Shown: piece by piece, positions 1 to 9,816 of the stretch
Layout: each line of letters begins with the position of its first letter
How positions within the stretch are numbered: position 1 is the stretch's first letter
NCBI RefSeq assembly: GCF_900129775.1
Contig: NZ_FQWV01000005.1
Span: forward strand, 1-64,000
From: Halobaculum gomorrense
GTDB lineage: Archaea > Halobacteriota > Halobacteria > Halobacteriales > Haloferacaceae
DNA length: 64,000 bases
Reading direction: 5' to 3'
Notes under the pieces: generated by a model
Told to the model about the DNA's origin: nothing
Databases searched by the model: none
What the model saw: the letters and a program-made list of their open reading frames with translations, nothing else
Position numbers and translations under genes: made by a program

Positions 1-207
1 CTCGGCCTTGTGAACCCAGTTATGGACGGTGGATCGAGCTCGATCAACACCAAATTCATAGAGAACTGAGACGGTATTCGAAAGTGATAGGCCACACAGA
101 TGGAGCTGAATACCAAGCTTCATAAACTGCCTTGGTGTTGTTTCTCGCTCCACAAAGGCTAACTCGATCTCGTTCAAACATCCGTTGAGGCGGGCGGTTT
201 CTGCCAT
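1..207 (-). CDS. IS6-family transposase, N-terminal part, cut by window edge
   Basis: This is the first 69 codons of a transposase that runs out of the window on the left. The start ATG is the complement of 205-207 and the protein begins MAETARLNGC. The stretch FVERETTPRQFMKLG, then LHLCGLSLSNTVSVL and RARSTVHNWVHKAE, matches the N-terminal helix-turn-helix region I know from haloarchaeal IS6-type (ISH14/ISH29-like) transposases. The DDE catalytic core would lie beyond the edge, so intactness cannot be judged. Base composition is visibly lower in GC than the neighbouring genes, as expected for a mobile element. Confidence 0.85.
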   Translation of the reverse strand, partial: MAETARLNGCLNEIELAFVERETTPRQFMKLGIQLHLCGLSLSNTVSVLYEFGVDRARSTVHNWVHKAE

Positions 208-270
208 AGATCAGCTGAAAATCGCTCCGCCTCACTCTTCATCCTTATTTGAACCTCGCCCCTGTGCGTG

Positions 271-290
271 GACGAATACTTTTGTCCCCC
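271..290 (-). repeat. candidate outer end (terminal inverted repeat) of the IS6 element
   Basis: Read on the minus strand this 20-bp stretch runs GGGGGACAAAAGTATTCGTC, about 60 bases upstream of the transposase start. The sequence switches to GC-rich chromosome just beyond it, so it is the natural place for the IS terminus. The partner repeat and any target duplication lie outside the window, so this is inference from position and composition only. Confidence 0.4.
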
Positions 291-308: not shown

Positions 309-1184
309 ATGACCGGCAGGACGGACGATTCCCCCTCGAACAGCGCGCTCGTTCGCGGGCCGGAGTCGACGCTCTCGGCCGCGCTCGCCGACCTCGACGA
401 CGGGTGCTGCGTGCTCGTCACGGGGGATGTCTCCGACGACGCCTACTGCGTCGCGGCGTCGCGGTACTTCGGCGCGACCCAGCACCTGCGCCGGCGCGTG
501 CTCGCGCTCACGACCGACGGCTCGGCGTCGCCGTCCGCGTGGTTCCCCGACGGCGTCGACGCCGGAGACGCCGACGCAGCGGTCGTCCGTCTCGACGACG
601 CGGTCCGCGATCCCGCTGCCGCGACCGGGGAGAGTGACGCGGCGAACGCGGGCGGAGCAGGTGACGCGATTCACCCGTCCGGAACTTCGACGGACGACAC
701 GTCGCCGGCCGAGCCCGCTAGCCTCGATCTGGACGGGGGCGGCGGGGAAGCCACCGACGCCGCTGCGGAGGCCGTCGACCACGAGTCGACCGCGGGGGGA
801 ATGAGAGCGGCGATTCTGGACGCCATCGAGGAAGTCGATGGGGCACGCCCAGACGACACTGACCGATCGGATCGGTTGGGGCTGCGGGTCGGAATCTTCC
901 GGGTCGACATGCTCTGTGCGACGCTCGGCGGCGACGCCACGGGAACGCTGCTGTGCGAGGTTGCGCAGACGACCCGAGACCGCGGCGGCATGGCGCACTT
1001 TCACCTCCCGCGCCCGACCGGGGAATCCCCGCGGTCGGACCCCGTCATCGACGAATTCGTCGACATCCTCGGCGACTCGCTCGACGTGATCGTGGAGCTT
1101 CGCTCCAGAGAGACAGCGTCGGCGCCCGAAGAGCGGTGGCACATCCTCGACTGGGGGACGACCGAGTGGAACTCCCTCCGGTGA
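309..1184 (+). CDS. DUF7504 family protein (haloarchaeal, partner of CHAT protein)
   Basis: A 291-residue protein. I chose ATG 309 because it follows the IS boundary and gives a compact start (MTGRTDDS). An upstream ATG at 249 would lie inside the IS end. Residues about 20-100 look like a Rossmann/RecA-like fold (CCVLVTGDVSDDAY followed by RRRVLALTTD). A low-complexity acidic/Ala linker comes next. The C-terminal half (GLRVGIFRVDML, FHLPRP, DVIVELRSRE, WHILDWGTTEWN) resembles the haloarchaeal DUF7504 family. No catalytic Walker motif is evident. It ends 4 bases before the CHAT gene, so the two are almost certainly co-transcribed. The IS lies immediately upstream and may have replaced the native promoter. 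The function is unknown. Confidence 0.7.
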   Translation: MTGRTDDSPSNSALVRGPESTLSAALADLDDGCCVLVTGDVSDDAYCVAASRYFGATQHLRRRVLALTTDGSASPSAWFPDGVDAGDADAAVVRLDDAVRDPAAATGESDAANAGGAGDAIHPSGTSTDDTSPAEPASLDLDGGGGEATDAAAEAVDHESTAGGMRAAILDAIEEVDGARPDDTDRSDRLGLRVGIFRVDMLCATLGGDATGTLLCEVAQTTRDRGGMAHFHLPRPTGESPRSDPVIDEFVDILGDSLDVIVELRSRETASAPEERWHILDWGTTEWNSLR

Positions 1185-1188
1185 TCCC

Positions 1189-3462
1189 ATGACGGACCGA
1201 GCCCCGAGTGCCGCGGATTCCGACGCGCCGCCCGAGGCCGCCGTCCGACTCGTCGACGCGACGCGGCGCGGTCCGTCGGTGTTCGAACTCGTCGACTCGA
1301 TCGAGGAGGTTCGCCTGCCGATCGCCGTCGACCGGCCCGACACCGGGGAGGCGCCGACGGCGACGCGGCTGGCGACGGCCGATCGGTTCAACGCCCCCGT
1401 CGACGGGTGCTGGGCCGTCGAGGCGACGACCGTGACGCCGCTGTGCACGGCCGACGTGTACGTCCGCGACGCTGACAACGCCGTCGTCGCGACCGCGACG
1501 GCCGAGGCGCCCGCCCGGGTGCCGCCCGGGCCCCACGTGCTGGAGCTGTCGACGGCCCCGGTGAAGACGTACGTCGCCGTCGACGGCCCGGCGAGCGTCT
1601 CCTACGAGGACCGGTACCCGCGCGTCTCGATCGATCCCGGTCACGGGGGCACCGCGGGACCCGACGAGATCGACGCTGCGGACGCTCCCGGAGAGCTGTT
1701 GATCGGTGCCCGCTCGCGGCGCAACTCCCCCGCGGGGACGGTGACGGTCCCCGAATCCCCGGAGGGGCTCGCGAGCGCGATCTCGACGTTCGGGTCGGCG
1801 CTGGCGACCACCTCGCCGGAGCGGTCGTTCCCGACGCTCCGGGGGCACCCGCCGCTGATCGAGCGCGGCGAGTCGTTCGAGGCGCCGCGGTTCGTCGAGC
1901 GCGTCGACGCCGGGATCACGCTGGGGCTGCCGTTCGAGTACGACGCGCTGTTTTCTGCCACGCCGCTGGCGTTCTACCTCGCCGCGGCGGTCGAGGAGAG
2001 CGCCGACCCGTACCTTCGTGCGGGCGAGTACCGGCACGACCTGCCGCGGGACCCGGACGCGCTGGCCGCCGCGCTGGGCGACCTCCTCCGACACTGTTTC
2101 ACGCTCGACTGTGCGACGCGGGCCTGCTCGGCGGGGCTGTACGACGTGAACCTCCACGTCCACGAGGTGCTCACGGAGCGCCTCGACCCGCCGTGGACCG
2201 AGTGGTACGAGGCCGACCTCGCCGAGCGGACCGCCGCCTACCTCGAGGTGCCGACGGCGGCGACGCTCGACTGCCTCGACTGGCCCCACACGACGGACGT
2301 GGTGCCCGCCGCCGAGAACGACTCGGCGCTGCCGTTCCTCGCCGCGGACCTCTCGGTGGTTCGCTCGCCGCCCCCGGAGACCTCGGCGACGGGTGACGGC
2401 GGCGTGACCGAACTTGACGACTTCGTCCGTGCCTCGCGAGAGGCGGTCGAGACGGCGACGCTGACGCGGAGTGCAGGCGCTGATCCGCCGACCGGCTCGA
2501 CCCGCGGCCCGACCCAAAACGCCCTCGACGACTCGGAGTCGATCGTGACCCTGCAGGCGGCCGACAGCATCGCGCAGGCGTGGATCGGCCCCGGGTTCCC
2601 GATGCGGGCGGCCAAGCCGACCGTCGAGACGTACCGCCGGCGCCTCGACCGCACGCCCGCGGAGGACCTCACCATCGGCGTCACGGTCGTGTGCAACGAC
2701 GAGGCGATGGTCGACGAACTGGGCGACACCTACGGCTTCCGCGACCACGTCACCTTCGACATCCGCGAGGAACGCGATCTGGCCTGCGACGCGCTCCGCG
2801 ACCTCCTCGCGGACGACCACGACTTCTTCCACTACGTCGGCCACGTCGACGAGCGCGGGATGGAGTGTTCCGACGGCTTCCTCGACCTGCGGACGCTCGA
2901 CGAGACGGGCGTCGACGCGTTCCTCCTCAACGCCTGCACGTCCTACCAGCAGGGCATGGCGCTCGTCGAGGCGGGCGCGCTCGGCGGCGTCGTCTCGCTG
3001 ACGGACCTCCCGAACTCGCTTGCGACCCGCGTCGGCCGCGACCTGGCGCGGCTGTTCGACGCCGGCTTCCCGCTGTACGCCGCGCTCGACGTGGTCGGGA
3101 CCGGCCCGTTCGCCGAGAGCGCGTACAGTATCGCGGGGGACCCGATGGTGCAGTTGTGTCAGTGTGTGACAGGAGCGCCGATGATAACTGATGTCCAGAA
3201 TTTATTTGATGGACGAATCTCACTCGTGAGTAGATTTTATCCCAGCAAGCATTTCTCGCATGGATCCATGTCTGCCGCTCAATTTGACCCTACTCATACG
3301 AACTATATTACTGGTGTCAAGACAGCAGAGGTATCCCTTCCCGTGGATGAGATCAACTCAGAACTTGATTTCGGTCGGACACCGATCAGGATTGACAATT
3401 CCCTCTACTGGACAGATGAGACAGACCTCGAATCGATCGTCAAATCTACGGACCAGCCGTAG
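1189..3462 (+). CDS. CHAT domain (caspase-like) protein
   Basis: A 757-residue protein beginning MTDRAPSA, 4 bases after the DUF7504 stop. The N-terminal ~500 residues are Halobacteria-specific and unassigned. Residues about 530-650 form a CHAT/caspase-like protease domain. They carry FFHYVGHVDERG with candidate catalytic His552 and FLLNACTSYQQG with candidate Cys583, followed by GALGGVVSLTDLPN. Known CHAT proteins use this His-Cys dyad to cleave partners in bacterial and archaeal effector systems. From about residue 660 (nt 3170) the GC content drops sharply and codon use changes, so the last ~95 residues look like a later addition or a variable recognition tail. The gene overlaps a convergent micropeptide gene tail to tail by 17 bases. 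Confidence 0.8.
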   Translation: MTDRAPSAADSDAPPEAAVRLVDATRRGPSVFELVDSIEEVRLPIAVDRPDTGEAPTATRLATADRFNAPVDGCWAVEATTVTPLCTADVYVRDADNAVVATATAEAPARVPPGPHVLELSTAPVKTYVAVDGPASVSYEDRYPRVSIDPGHGGTAGPDEIDAADAPGELLIGARSRRNSPAGTVTVPESPEGLASAISTFGSALATTSPERSFPTLRGHPPLIERGESFEAPRFVERVDAGITLGLPFEYDALFSATPLAFYLAAAVEESADPYLRAGEYRHDLPRDPDALAAALGDLLRHCFTLDCATRACSAGLYDVNLHVHEVLTERLDPPWTEWYEADLAERTAAYLEVPTAATLDCLDWPHTTDVVPAAENDSALPFLAADLSVVRSPPPETSATGDGGVTELDDFVRASREAVETATLTRSAGADPPTGSTRGPTQNALDDSESIVTLQAADSIAQAWIGPGFPMRAAKPTVETYRRRLDRTPAEDLTIGVTVVCNDEAMVDELGDTYGFRDHVTFDIREERDLACDALRDLLADDHDFFHYVGHVDERGMECSDGFLDLRTLDETGVDAFLLNACTSYQQGMALVEAGALGGVVSLTDLPNSLATRVGRDLARLFDAGFPLYAALDVVGTGPFAESAYSIAGDPMVQLCQCVTGAPMITDVQNLFDGRISLVSRFYPSKHFSHGSMSAAQFDPTHTNYITGVKTAEVSLPVDEINSELDFGRTPIRIDNSLYWTDETDLESIVKSTDQP

Positions 3463-3583
3463 TGACACCGTTTGCTGCCACATTCCCCGCACTCGACAGC
3501 AGCAGCACGAGCGTGAACAGCGCGCCCATCATCCGCGGGTGGTCAGCCAGCCATTCCGTCATTGCGGCGTCGTCTTCGGACAT
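3446..3583 (-). CDS. DUF7503-like 45-residue membrane micropeptide
   Basis: This short gene is too small for most callers. The 45-residue product starts MSEDDAAMTEWLADHPRMMG, continues with a hydrophobic segment (residues 20-33, ALFTLVLLLSSAGN) and ends in a short polar tail. This layout matches a tiny haloarchaeal family I recognise as DUF7503, which travels with DUF7504 and CHAT proteins. A Shine-Dalgarno-like AAGGAG lies about 10 bases before the ATG (complement of 3581-3583). It is convergent with the CHAT gene and its last 17 bases overlap the CHAT 3' end. A role as pore, sensor or substrate of the CHAT protease is possible but is inference. Confidence 0.75.
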   Translation of the reverse strand: MSEDDAAMTEWLADHPRMMGALFTLVLLLSSAGNVAANGVTTAGP

Positions 3584-3600
3584 TACAACCACTCCTTTCG

Positions 3601-3640
3601 TTGGTTTCTGAATCAATGTATCTGAATGATTCTGATATCA
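3601..3640. promoter_or_regulatory. AT-rich control region with inverted repeat upstream of the micropeptide gene
   Basis: This AT-rich patch in a GC-rich genome contains GAATCA and TGATTC arms separated by 11 bases, followed by further TGATATCA-like sequence. It lies 18-57 bases upstream of the micropeptide start on the minus strand, where a TATA box or operator would sit. A binding role is inferred. Confidence 0.35.
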
Positions 3641-3710
3641 AATTACCCGAACCAACTGCTGATATTTAGAATACTTAAAGAACTCGCGAACGGCCGGCGG
3701 TGGCACACGT

Positions 3711-5915: not shown

Positions 5916-6509
5916 TTACAGTTCGACGGCCTGCTTCTGCCCGAGTGACTCGGGGACGGTGAAGCGGATCGTCGTCGTCGCGCCGGACATCGTGTTGATC
6001 TTGATCGTGACCTCCGATCCCTCGGCGAGCTCGGCCGGGGAGTCGGTCGCGGTCAGGTCGAACTCGACGTTGAATCGGTCGTCAGGGTCGTTAAGGACGG
6101 TCTTCGAGGTGTCGGTGTTCTTCACCGCGTAGGTGTTGAACTGCCAGCCGCCCTCATTCGCGGAGGAGTGCGTCAACGTCTCAGTTCCCTGCGGGCCGAT
6201 CCAGTTGATCGTCGCGTTCGAGAGGTCGATCTCGCCGGCGCCGGGCGCCTGCGTCACCGTCACGTTGACCTTCGAGATGGTGTCCTGTGACGTGTTGACC
6301 GTCCCGACCGTCACGACCTCCTGCAGGCGGTTGCTGACCTGCTTACTCGACTGCTGTCCCGTCTCCTGCGACTTGCTCTGGAGGAAGCCGGCCGTGTTGA
6401 TGAGGACGCCCGCGGCGATCGCCGCCACGAGCACCATCGCGATGAACACGATGAGCGTCCCGATACCGACCTGCCCGCGCTCGTCTTCGTCTGTGATGAA
6501 TTCGAACAT
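5916..6509 (-). CDS. archaellin (archaeal flagellin), orphan copy
   Basis: 197 residues. The N-terminus is a class III prepilin signal: [12 protein letters not shown] is followed by [20 protein letters not shown], with predicted archaeal prepilin peptidase cleavage after Gly12. The hydrophobic helix polymerises into the archaellum core. The rest is a Thr/Ser/Asn-rich, beta-rich exported domain, typical of haloarchaeal archaellins of about 195-220 residues. No other archaellum gene (flaCE, flaHIJ) is in the window, so it is a separate locus. It could be a minor or alternative filament subunit, or an archaellin-like adhesion pilin. The downstream gene is unrelated. Confidence 0.85.
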
Positions 6510-6630
6510 CTGTTGGTTGTGCTCCCGCGCGCTCTCGCACGGCGGTTACTCCACTCGATGTTGCTCCCCTACATATATCTCAGCCGCCAAAAATCACGAC
6601 TGAATATCGGCGCCGGTCGCCGGGTCGGGC

Positions 6631-8133
6631 TCACCGAACCGTCGCGTCCGTGATCCGCGCGAGCCGGTCTGCGACGGCGTCGTCGAGGCCGGCGTCGGTG
6701 ACCCGCCACCGCCAGTTCCCGTCGGTCGTTCCCGGCGTGTTGAATCGGGCGTGGCTGTCCAGTCCCAGCAGGTCCTGCATGGTCGTCATGGCGAGCGTCG
6801 CCTCGGAGTTCCACACCGCCTCGACGAGGTCCCACTCGATCTCCGTGCCGTCGGTGCCGAGGTTGTAATGGAGGCAGTCCTGCTGCTGGTCGCCGAGCGA
6901 CTCGTAGTAGCCGACGGCGGTGTCGGTGTCGTGGGTCGACGTGTACGCGACGCAGTCTTCCGGGTAGTGCATCGGCTGGTAGAGGTGCCCCTGCTGGCAC
7001 CAGTCGGCGTACTGTGGCACGCGCATTCCGGGGAGGTCGAACGCCTCGCGCAACGCGGCGCTCTCGGCGTCGAGGAAGCCCAGATCCTCGGCGACGAACG
7101 GGAGCTCGCCGAACTCCGCGCGCACCGCCTCGAAGAACGCGTGGCCGGGCCCCTCGCGCCACTCGCCGTCCGCAGGGTCGTCGCTGTCGGCGGGGATCGC
7201 CCAGAACTCGTCGAACCCCTTGAAGTGGTCGAGGCGGGCGTAGTCGACGGCGTCGAACAGCCGCCGGAGGCGGTCGAGCCACCACTCGTACCCCGTCTCG
7301 GCGAGGCGGTCCCAGTCGTACACCGGATTCCCCCACCGCTGCCCGGAGTCGCCCATGTTCGGGGGAACGCCCGCCACCGCGGCCGGTCGGGCGTCGTCCG
7401 TCAGGTCGAACGCCTCGGGCGCGGCCCACACGTCGGCGGAGTCGAGCGCAACGTAGATCGGGAGGTCGCCGAGGATCTCGACGCCCCGATCGTCGGCGTA
7501 CGCGCGCAGGTCGCGCCACTGGCGATCGAACGTCCACTGGCAGAACGCCCGGAACTCGACCTCGTCGGAGAGTGACTCGCGGTAGTCGGCCAGCGTCTCC
7601 GGATCGCGCGCGCGGACCGGCTCGGGCCACTCCGTCCACAGCGCTCCGTCGAACTCGGTCTTGAGCGCGCGAAACAGCGCGTAGTCGGCGAGCCAGCCCG
7701 CCTCGCGCTCGCGGAACGCGGCGAACGCGTCGCGCTCGTCGTCGCTTGCGACCTCCAGAAACCGATCGAATGCCGTCCGGAGACGGCCGAGCTTGAACGA
7801 CTCGACGGCCTCGTAGCGCACTTCGTGGGACGAGAAGCCGGCGGCTGGATCGCGTTCCGTGTCGAGTTCGTCGTCGCCGAGATAGCCGCGCTCCGCGAGG
7901 TCGACGAGGTCGATCAGCAGCGGGTTCCCGGCGAACCCGGAGAACGTCTGGTACGGGGAGTGGCCGTGGACGCCGACGGTCGGTCCGAGCGGACACACCT
8001 GCCAGATCGACTGGTCAGCACGGTCGAGGAAGTCGAGGAACGAGCGCGCGCCCACGCCCAGATCGCCGATGCCGTGCGGGCCGGGCAGCGCGGTGGGGTG
8101 GAGCAGGACGCCGCTCCGGCGATCGAATCGCAT
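6631..8133 (-). CDS. malQ: 4-alpha-glucanotransferase (amylomaltase, GH77)
   Basis: 500 residues, the full length of bacterial-type amylomaltase. It transfers alpha-1,4-glucan segments between malto-oligosaccharides, releasing glucose. Motifs in order are PTALPGPHGIGDLG, GHSPYQTFSGFAGNP, GDLPIYVALDSADVWA, ARLDHFKGF (nucleophile Asp302), FVAEDLG (acid/base Glu349) and TSTHDTDT (Asp402). All three GH77 carboxylates are present. It is divergent from the GT4 gene with 141 bases between the starts, placing it in one locus with the glycosyltransferase, GH13 and GH15 enzymes. A role in glycogen or starch turnover follows from family and context. Confidence 0.95.
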   Translation of the reverse strand: MRFDRRSGVLLHPTALPGPHGIGDLGVGARSFLDFLDRADQSIWQVCPLGPTVGVHGHSPYQTFSGFAGNPLLIDLVDLAERGYLGDDELDTERDPAAGFSSHEVRYEAVESFKLGRLRTAFDRFLEVASDDERDAFAAFREREAGWLADYALFRALKTEFDGALWTEWPEPVRARDPETLADYRESLSDEVEFRAFCQWTFDRQWRDLRAYADDRGVEILGDLPIYVALDSADVWAAPEAFDLTDDARPAAVAGVPPNMGDSGQRWGNPVYDWDRLAETGYEWWLDRLRRLFDAVDYARLDHFKGFDEFWAIPADSDDPADGEWREGPGHAFFEAVRAEFGELPFVAEDLGFLDAESAALREAFDLPGMRVPQYADWCQQGHLYQPMHYPEDCVAYTSTHDTDTAVGYYESLGDQQQDCLHYNLGTDGTEIEWDLVEAVWNSEATLAMTTMQDLLGLDSHARFNTPGTTDGNWRWRVTDAGLDDAVADRLARITDATVR

Positions 8134-8274
8134 CGAGCGAGTGATCGAGTGCGGGGCGTATCAAGTGTCTGGTCTGCCGATCCCCGCTGACCGACCCCTG
8201 CGATCGATCCTCGCTGATCGATCCTCGGGGTCGACGCCAAGTGACTAAGTACCGGTCGAACCATAGCAGAGTCG

Positions 8275-9330
8275 ATGCCGTACACGGTCCTGATGCTGGG
8301 GTGGGGGTTCCCGCCGAACGTGACCGGCGGGCTCGACACCGCCGTCGGCGAACTGTTCGAGCGCCTGCGCGTGCGAGACACCGTCACCGTCGAGTTAGTG
8401 CTTCCGGCGGAGTACGCGCCCGAGAACCGCGAGGGAATCCACGGCGTGCCGACCGGCGACGGCGACATCATCACGAGGATCGGCCGGCTGTCGGGCGCGT
8501 TCGTCGACCGCGCGGCAGACGCCGACATTGTCCACACGAACGACTGGTTCGGCTACAACCCCGGGTCGCGCGCGCAGGCCAGCCACGACGTGGAGTGGGT
8601 GACGACGTTCCACTCGCTGTCCTCCGACCGCAACGCCGACCCGCCCGAGCGCGAGAAGCGCACGGAACAGCGCGTCGTCAGCCGGTCGGACCACCTGCTC
8701 GCGGTAAGCGAGTTCACCGCCCGCAAGATCGCCCACGAGTACGGCGGCGACGCGGAGGTCATCTACAACGGCTTCTCGTCGGTCAAGCCGACGGGGCGCG
8801 ACGTGAAGGCGGAGCTGGGGATCGACGGGCCGATGCTGTTCTTCGTCGGCCGCCACACCGACCAGAAGGGGCTCGCGTACCTGCTGTACGCCCTGCCGAA
8901 GCTCCGCCGCGACGACGTGACGCTCGTCATCGGCGGCACGGGGCACCTCACGGACCAACTGAAGCGTTTCGTCGAGCTCCTCGGCATCAAAGAGCGGGTG
9001 GAGTTTGTCGGCTACGTTCCCGAGGAGGAACTGGGCGACTACTACGCGAGCGCGGATCTCTTCGTCTCGCCGTCGCTCGCGGAGCCGTTCGGGATCACCA
9101 TCGTCGAGGCGCTGTCGGTCGGTACCCGCGTGGTCGCCGGGCCCAGCGGCGCCGCGGAGGTGCTGCCCGAGGACTGTCTCATCGAGGTCGAGCCGAACTC
9201 CGAGGCGATCGCCGCGGGCATCGAACGCGCGCTCGCGCTGGAGACGCCCATCGAGTACGAGGAGCGCACCTGGGATCAGGTAGCCGACGAGCACGTCGCC
9301 TTCTACGAGCGGATCCTCGACGGGGCGTGA
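8275..9330 (+). CDS. GT4-family glycosyltransferase (glycogen/starch synthase-like)
   Basis: 351 residues with the two-Rossmann GT-B fold. The N-terminal acceptor half begins MLGWGFPPNVTGGLDTAVG and has HTNDWFGYNPG, the context typical of starch/glycogen synthase-like enzymes. The C-terminal donor half has FFVGRHTDQKGL, FVGYVPEEELG and the EPFGITIVE motif (EX7E, nucleotide-sugar binding). It sits among alpha-glucan enzymes, so ADP- or UDP-glucose-dependent glucan elongation is the best guess. Other GT4 sugar transfers are possible. It is shorter than bacterial GlgA (about 480 residues). The gene is divergent from malQ and convergent with the repeat-containing gene at 9361. Confidence 0.82.
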   Translation: MPYTVLMLGWGFPPNVTGGLDTAVGELFERLRVRDTVTVELVLPAEYAPENREGIHGVPTGDGDIITRIGRLSGAFVDRAADADIVHTNDWFGYNPGSRAQASHDVEWVTTFHSLSSDRNADPPEREKRTEQRVVSRSDHLLAVSEFTARKIAHEYGGDAEVIYNGFSSVKPTGRDVKAELGIDGPMLFFVGRHTDQKGLAYLLYALPKLRRDDVTLVIGGTGHLTDQLKRFVELLGIKERVEFVGYVPEEELGDYYASADLFVSPSLAEPFGITIVEALSVGTRVVAGPSGAAEVLPEDCLIEVEPNSEAIAAGIERALALETPIEYEERTWDQVADEHVAFYERILDGA

Positions 9331-9360
9331 CCACCACCGGGGAGTCCCCGAGCGGGCCCG

Positions 9361-9816
9361 CTACCTGAGCAGCCGGAAGTCGGTGATCGGCTCCGGGTGG
9401 ACGATCCGGAAGCCGTCGGCGGTGGGCTCCAGTCCGACGCGGTCGGGCGCGGGCCCGCCGCGCTGGTAGGGGCTGTCCGACGTTTCCGGCGATTGGTATG
9501 GGCTGTCGGTGGCGACCGACTGGTACGGGCTATCCGAGGCCGTCGACTGATACGGACTGTCCGACGGGCCCGGGCCCGTGCCGTATGCGCCTTGTCGCGG
9601 ACCGTCCTCGGATTCGGGCGGGCGGTCGAAGTCCTCCGGGGGAAGGTACACACGCTCGCCCGAAGCCGACTCGACCACGACCGCTGCGTCCCGGTCGCCC
9701 GTGACCGTGATCACCGTCCGGCCGTCGGCGATTTCCACGTCGACCGAGACCGGGCGATCGGTCCCGGCGGCGTCATCGTGTTCTTCCTCCTCGTCGCCGG
9801 CGGCGTTGCCCTCCAT
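9361..9816 (-). CDS. uncharacterised haloarchaeal protein with SDSPYQ repeats
   Basis: 151 residues. I chose ATG 9816 (MEGNAAGD) because it is the last Met before the conserved-looking part. The N-terminus is very acidic. A small beta domain follows (VSVDVEIADGRTVITVTGDR, VVESASGERVYLP). Residues about 90-130 contain four copies of (S/T)DSPYQ at intervals of 8-9 residues, then a C-terminal block (GLEPTADGFRIVHPEPITDF). There is no signal peptide or membrane segment. It lies between the GT4 and GH13 genes, so a link to glucan metabolism is possible but unproven. Confidence 0.65.
   Translation of the reverse strand: MEGNAAGDEEEEHDDAAGTDRPVSVDVEIADGRTVITVTGDRDAAVVVESASGERVYLPPEDFDRPPESEDGPRQGAYGTGPGPSDSPYQSTASDSPYQSVATDSPYQSPETSDSPYQRGGPAPDRVGLEPTADGFRIVHPEPITDFRLLR

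Follow-up and report, generated by a model that had tools for sequence, protein, structure and literature searches.

A divergent CHAT protease gene and a convergent gene for a Gly-Pro-ending membrane micropeptide are paired across the Halobacteria

Most of what is known about CHAT proteases comes from immune systems, and in known defence systems they act as effectors. What does such a protease do when its gene is near-universal in haloarchaea and paired with the gene of a micropeptide? We approached this question from one locus of Halobaculum gomorrense, within a window of 64,000 nucleotides (GCF_900129775.1, NZ_FQWV01000005.1, positions 1 to 64,000, forward strand). Here a gene for a DUF7504 protein (309..1184, + strand) is followed after four bases (1185-1188) by the CHAT gene (1189..3462, +), and a gene for a 45-aa DUF7503 peptide (3446..3583, - strand) converges with the latter in a 17-base tail-to-tail overlap (3446..3462); overlap or near-abutment of the two is usual in relatives. 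All three genes exist as an earlier, sequence-only reading had noted them, with the 4-base spacer and the 3' overlap. An alignment of genus members reveals a conserved element, GGACGAATACTTTTGTCCCC, upstream of the DUF7504-CHAT pair (269..290, +), which we presume to be its promoter. Outside the window, gene calls came from a simple ORF heuristic, and the genome profile searches may miss weak matches.

The 757-aa protein encoded at 1189..3462 was matched by no Pfam, NCBIfam or PADLOC model, PF12770 included, so that its assignment to CHAT had to come from structure; a sequence search of the PDB gave nothing useful. An AlphaFold2 model built from 66 relatives (mean pLDDT 86.8, pTM 0.89) found its best Foldseek match in the PDB in SAVED-CHAT 8tl0 (E 9.6e-6), and gingipain RgpB, separase, the CRISPR-caspase complex 7zoq and procaspase-3 were among the other top matches. 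The sequence-only reading had singled out His552 (codon 2842..2844) and Cys583 (2935..2937), and both residues, in GH and NAC-type motifs, are invariant across 81/81 homologues. Predicted fold and His/Cys dyad together identify a divergent CHAT-type (clan CD, caspase-fold) cysteine protease, with proteolysis as its predicted activity; the conserved dyad also rules out a pseudo-enzyme. From fold and conservation we place the catalytic domain at residues about 450-660 (2536..3168, +; limits approximate). PF12770 is matched by only 6 of the 66 homologues at E<=0.01 (best E 2.2e-5), and the Pfam CHAT model misses the CHAT gene in most genomes sampled, where its usual annotation is 'hypothetical protein'.

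Separase and gingipain R share the fold class and the dyad, but the haloarchaeal enzyme differs from them in its N-terminal region, which spans about 440 residues and carries a SPERS-PTLRGHPP motif of high conservation. Several features of the gene lie outside the dyad itself. Another His and another Cys, H548 (2830-2832) and C560 (2866-2868), are likewise invariant in 81/81 homologues. The motif TTSPERSFPTLRGHPP, at residues 207-222 of the N-terminal region (window about 1807-1854) and far from the dyad, is extremely conserved. The 3' end of the gene (3180-3462) is AT-richer and evolves fastest, with a dip in GC that is common to relatives.

The convergent peptide belongs to Pfam DUF7503 (PF24335; 72.4 bits, cut-off 27). 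Its gene is under purifying selection within the genus (pN/pS 0.38), which together with the conservation of the family rules out a spurious ORF. The peptide has a hydrophobic span of 19 residues (KD 1.73), directly preceded by an [HN]P[RK] motif that is present in 117 of 121 non-redundant peptides and reads HPR in the window (3533..3541, -). Across the 121 sequences the motif is followed by a hydrophobic core with the consensus MxGVLFTxxLLLSQAG, then by a segment rich in A and finally by the variable tail, and the distance from P[RK] to the C-terminus is held at 28-29 residues in 112 of 120 peptides. The chain ends in Gly-Pro (codons 3449..3454, -, in the window) in 115 of the 121 non-redundant peptides, against 107 of 8616 ORFs of 30-140 aa at the same loci, many of these 107 being DUF7503-type peptides themselves. 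This ending is not imposed by the CHAT reading frame, as it is equally frequent (76/80) in peptides whose genes do not overlap CHAT; the idea that the overlapping frame dictates it is thus ruled out. Within the genus the core is the most constrained part and the tail, neutral and variable with a modal length of 9, changes fastest (pN 0.46), while Gly-Pro shows no replacement.

Charges are almost confined to the N-terminal side of the peptide. By the positive-inside rule for membrane topology, this suggests an orientation with the N-terminus in and the C-terminus out, and the P[RK] motif may perhaps serve simply as the topology signal. The 85 nt upstream of 57 peptide genes have a mean GC of 35%, compared with 63% for 937 other genes at the same loci. 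In the window this AT-rich region (3584..3668, -) contains the element TATCAGAAT...GATAnATTgATTC, a presumed promoter that is conserved among genus members as well as in two neighbouring genera (L052/L058). Given an upstream region of the peptide gene's own, CHAT and peptide are probably expressed from separate promoters.

To compare inventories, CHAT profile and DUF7503 searches were run over 294 Halobacteria genomes. CHAT was found in 273 (93%) and DUF7503 in 251, and no genome on the CHAT-less list was DUF7503-positive when the lists were compared by eye, the lists lacking names for one CHAT-less and 23 DUF7503-less genomes. The co-occurrence has a Fisher p of 1.6e-20 with genomes treated as independent although they are related by ancestry. 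No DUF7503 was seen outside Halobacteria in a 295-genome sample of the phylum. CHAT copies are mostly one to three per genome, and the peptide is mostly single, with expansion in some genera; copy number is raised in genomes G018, G029 and G294. All 57 Pfam DUF7503 matches in the genomes of 60 relatives lie convergently behind a CHAT gene. At 80 named loci the peptide is present in 75, every one convergent with CHAT, and the gaps between the two genes cluster at -16, -3 and +1; the listing includes one extra peptide, which accompanies the second CHAT of L125. The same arrangement recurs in dozens of genera. The robust unit is therefore CHAT plus micropeptide. The sequence-only reading had made a conserved neighbourhood and a conserved His/Cys pair its two checks, and both hold in the homologues; the small peptide is, moreover, the characteristic partner of the protease.

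The pairing has exceptions. No peptide was detectable in 22 of the 273 CHAT-bearing genomes, and in Haloplanus (L087, L144, L197) CHAT occurs with DUF7504 and no detected peptide. In one genome (G092) the peptide lies on the same strand as CHAT, 1.4 kb away, and has lost Gly-Pro; another (G066) is reported to have a tandem copy. Separately, G018 (L094-L097) has 13 CHAT matches and no Pfam DUF7503 match, and some of these CHAT genes are accompanied by divergent convergent TM peptides.

Could the two genes simply be ancient neighbours with no functional link? Linked genes that are inherited jointly will appear correlated. Counter to this, the pair recurs in several unrelated neighbourhoods and among within-genome paralogues while the other neighbours change, and the peptide was not found without CHAT among genomes listed as CHAT-less. 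We give this explanation almost no credence. Alternatively, the unit could resemble a toxin-antitoxin pair, in which one gene does harm that the other counteracts. Two genes with separate upstream regions would suit such a pair, as would the absence of the peptide from every genome listed as CHAT-less. CHAT, however, is kept in several lineages where the peptide is missing, and the pair is distributed as a core feature, not patchily, so that we regard this reading as very doubtful.

The third gene has a looser tie to the pair. Its product is a clear member of DUF7504 (PF24336; 90.6 bits, cut-off 27), and its AlphaFold model (pLDDT 80.5) resembles KaiC/RecA-like proteins in Foldseek (E 4.5e-5), at a TM-score of only about 0.4. 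It shares this predicted fold with the KaiC/RecA-like ATPases but lacks their Walker A motif: GxxxxGK[ST] is absent from the P-loop position of the DUF7504 alignment. DUF7504 stands directly upstream of CHAT in 28 of 57 loci, in 17 of 31 genera scattered over the CHAT tree, and amounts to about six copies per genome in all. An obligate three-gene module is thereby ruled out, and the compact trio of the sequence-only reading gives way to a pair with an optional third member. Where present, DUF7504 may add a KaiC-like sensor or adaptor, probably one that does not bind ATP, as judged from the model.

The genomic setting bears on whether the locus is a mobile or antiviral element. Within the genus the order aspartate aminotransferase / DUF7504 / CHAT / peptide / aMBF1 / tpiA is conserved; the aMBF1 neighbour was identified by NCBIfam, and from reading the sequences we take the other two flanking genes to be those of aspartate aminotransferase and triose-phosphate isomerase (tpiA). 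An archaellin-like protein, so named by eye, is encoded near the module (5916-6509, -) and is kept in the genus synteny. At 1-207 (-) lies a fragment of a truncated IS6-family transposase (45 bits, below cut-off), some 100 bp ahead of where DUF7504 begins; relatives have aspartate aminotransferase in this place. Since the fragment sits at the very edge of an assembled contig (G000:C12, which ends at window position 1), it points to an upstream insertion in this strain with an assembly break, not to a mobile module. The mobile context once suggested for this locus is not borne out, and genus synteny rules out a mobile island here. Copies do exist on plasmids elsewhere: relatives were found on 25 plasmid records, all haloarchaeal, where most are annotated 'hypothetical protein', with a single 'caspase family protein' and a single 'CHAT domain-containing protein'.

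In the immune or cell-death reading, a virus or stress would activate CHAT, which would cleave the peptide into a membrane-disrupting fragment. The use of CHAT proteases as defence effectors, the best fold match to SAVED-CHAT, the hydrophobic nature of the partner, the higher copy number in G018, G029 and G294 and the 25 plasmids with relatives would all fit. Against it stand the presence of CHAT in 93% of Halobacteria at mostly one to three copies and the core synteny in the genus. PADLOC models gave no match for DUF7504 or CHAT and one partial, chance-level match for the peptide (E 0.022). Among 110 neighbour genes at 19 loci, PADLOC picked out a few of methyltransferase type and some isolated weak matches, counts that have no background rate alongside, and searches of phage and IMG/VR viral sequences found no relatives. 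Few genes at these loci look defence-like. The defence module proposed from the sequence does not find support, nor does a defence-island setting, and we consider an immune or death function rather unlikely. The best explanation of the locus is that it is vertically inherited and core, rather than a mobile antiviral island.

On balance we lean, with modest confidence, towards a core haloarchaeal module of regulated proteolysis, with the membrane peptide as dedicated partner of the protease. CHAT would be a soluble caspase-fold cysteine protease. The peptide would cross the membrane once, with its N-terminus inside, [HN]P[RK] at the cytosolic face and, if the predicted topology is right, a short, neutral, Gly-Pro-terminated tail on the outside. 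Its most likely task would be to anchor the protease at the membrane or to control CHAT, presumably by direct contact. Distances among peptides and among CHAT proteins are correlated over 119 loci (Mantel r 0.60). Peptide divergence tracks the catalytic segment of CHAT (partial r 0.27, 0/200 permutations) and neither the C-terminal segment, which is encoded nearest the peptide gene (partial r 0.03), nor residues 171-395 (partial r -0.04). This pattern, a correlation on related sequences, favours contact of the peptide with the catalytic domain.

The peptide may also be a substrate. Gingipain R and separase cleave after Arg, and since these are among the nearest folds, the conserved Arg/Lys just before the membrane span becomes a candidate P1 site after which CHAT might cut. 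Alternatively, the peptide may merely anchor or inhibit the protease, or its tail may be released outside. A related proposal makes the peptide the precursor of a secreted signal, with its hydrophobic part as signal sequence, an AxA-like site and a product of about eight residues ending in Gly-Pro, which CHAT would process or respond to. Such a precursor could account for the AAA/VAA-like motif after the core, the fixed tail length (mode 9) and a tail that evolves fastest (pN 0.46) next to an unchanging Gly-Pro. Yet the peptide begins with an acidic stretch that has few basic residues and lacks a twin arginine, the tails are rich in the small residues A/S/T/G/N, and beside the module there is no conserved gene for a transporter, a receptor or maturation; we hold the secreted-signal proposal to be improbable. 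For the regulated-proteolysis module we infer a signalling role. In its broadest form, which we think possible though somewhat unlikely, this would be a class-wide archaeal signalling system built on a caspase-fold protease and a membrane micropeptide with a variable, outward, Gly-Pro-capped tail, the protease either cutting the micropeptide or being under its control, possibly with a short extracellular peptide set free.

The module shares with SAVED-CHAT and Craspase, which are linked to type III CRISPR, a CHAT caspase-like catalytic domain and the pairing of a protease with a dedicated partner protein. It differs in that no SAVED or TPR domain was recognised, no CRISPR-type defence genes were seen among the scanned neighbours, its location is core chromosomal and its partner is a 45-aa membrane peptide. 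Pfam lists both DUF7503 and DUF7504, of which the window proteins are members, as 'function unknown'. A literature search on DUF7503, DUF7504, PF24335, PF24336 and CHAT in Haloferax, which reached few subscription papers, found none that names either family or describes the module; what we add is the link of the two families to CHAT, and the Gly-Pro C-terminus.

Seth-Pasricha and colleagues reported strong caspase-like activity in Haloferax volcanii, for which the gene was not identified and its identification was called for (PMC3615174). DUF7503 was found in the H. volcanii control genome, and its relatives H. prahovense and H. elongans both have CHAT together with the peptide (L184, L159). 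As a clade-wide caspase-fold enzyme that is likewise haloarchaeal, CHAT is a concrete candidate for this unexplained activity. The nearest folds of CHAT prefer Arg, whereas the H. volcanii activity is Asp-specific, cutting after Asp (PMC3615174); because of this difference we offer CHAT as its source only as a hypothesis, and the activity may instead come from the proteasome or from something else. If the signalling reading is true, archaea would make housekeeping use of a caspase-like protease, which might underlie part of the reported haloarchaeal activity. The pair makes the contribution of CHAT to that activity testable in a tractable laboratory archaeon, together with the purpose that a near-invariant Gly-Pro micropeptide has for a caspase-fold protease.

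CHAT also forms a paralogous clade, linked to a gene for a TbsP-like regulator and a YcaO-like gene, neighbours that we name from our reading of the sequences. In about one third of the fetched loci of this clade, the CHAT gene converges with one for a small hydrophobic peptide that ends in Gly-Pro and is mostly missed by the DUF7503 profile. The clade includes the second copy of the H. gomorrense genome itself (L091, G000:C6:148000-167000), where CHAT lies at 6179-9628 in a core neighbourhood of, by eye, folD / TbsP-like regulator / YcaO, and is met by a divergent convergent peptide that again ends in Gly-Pro.
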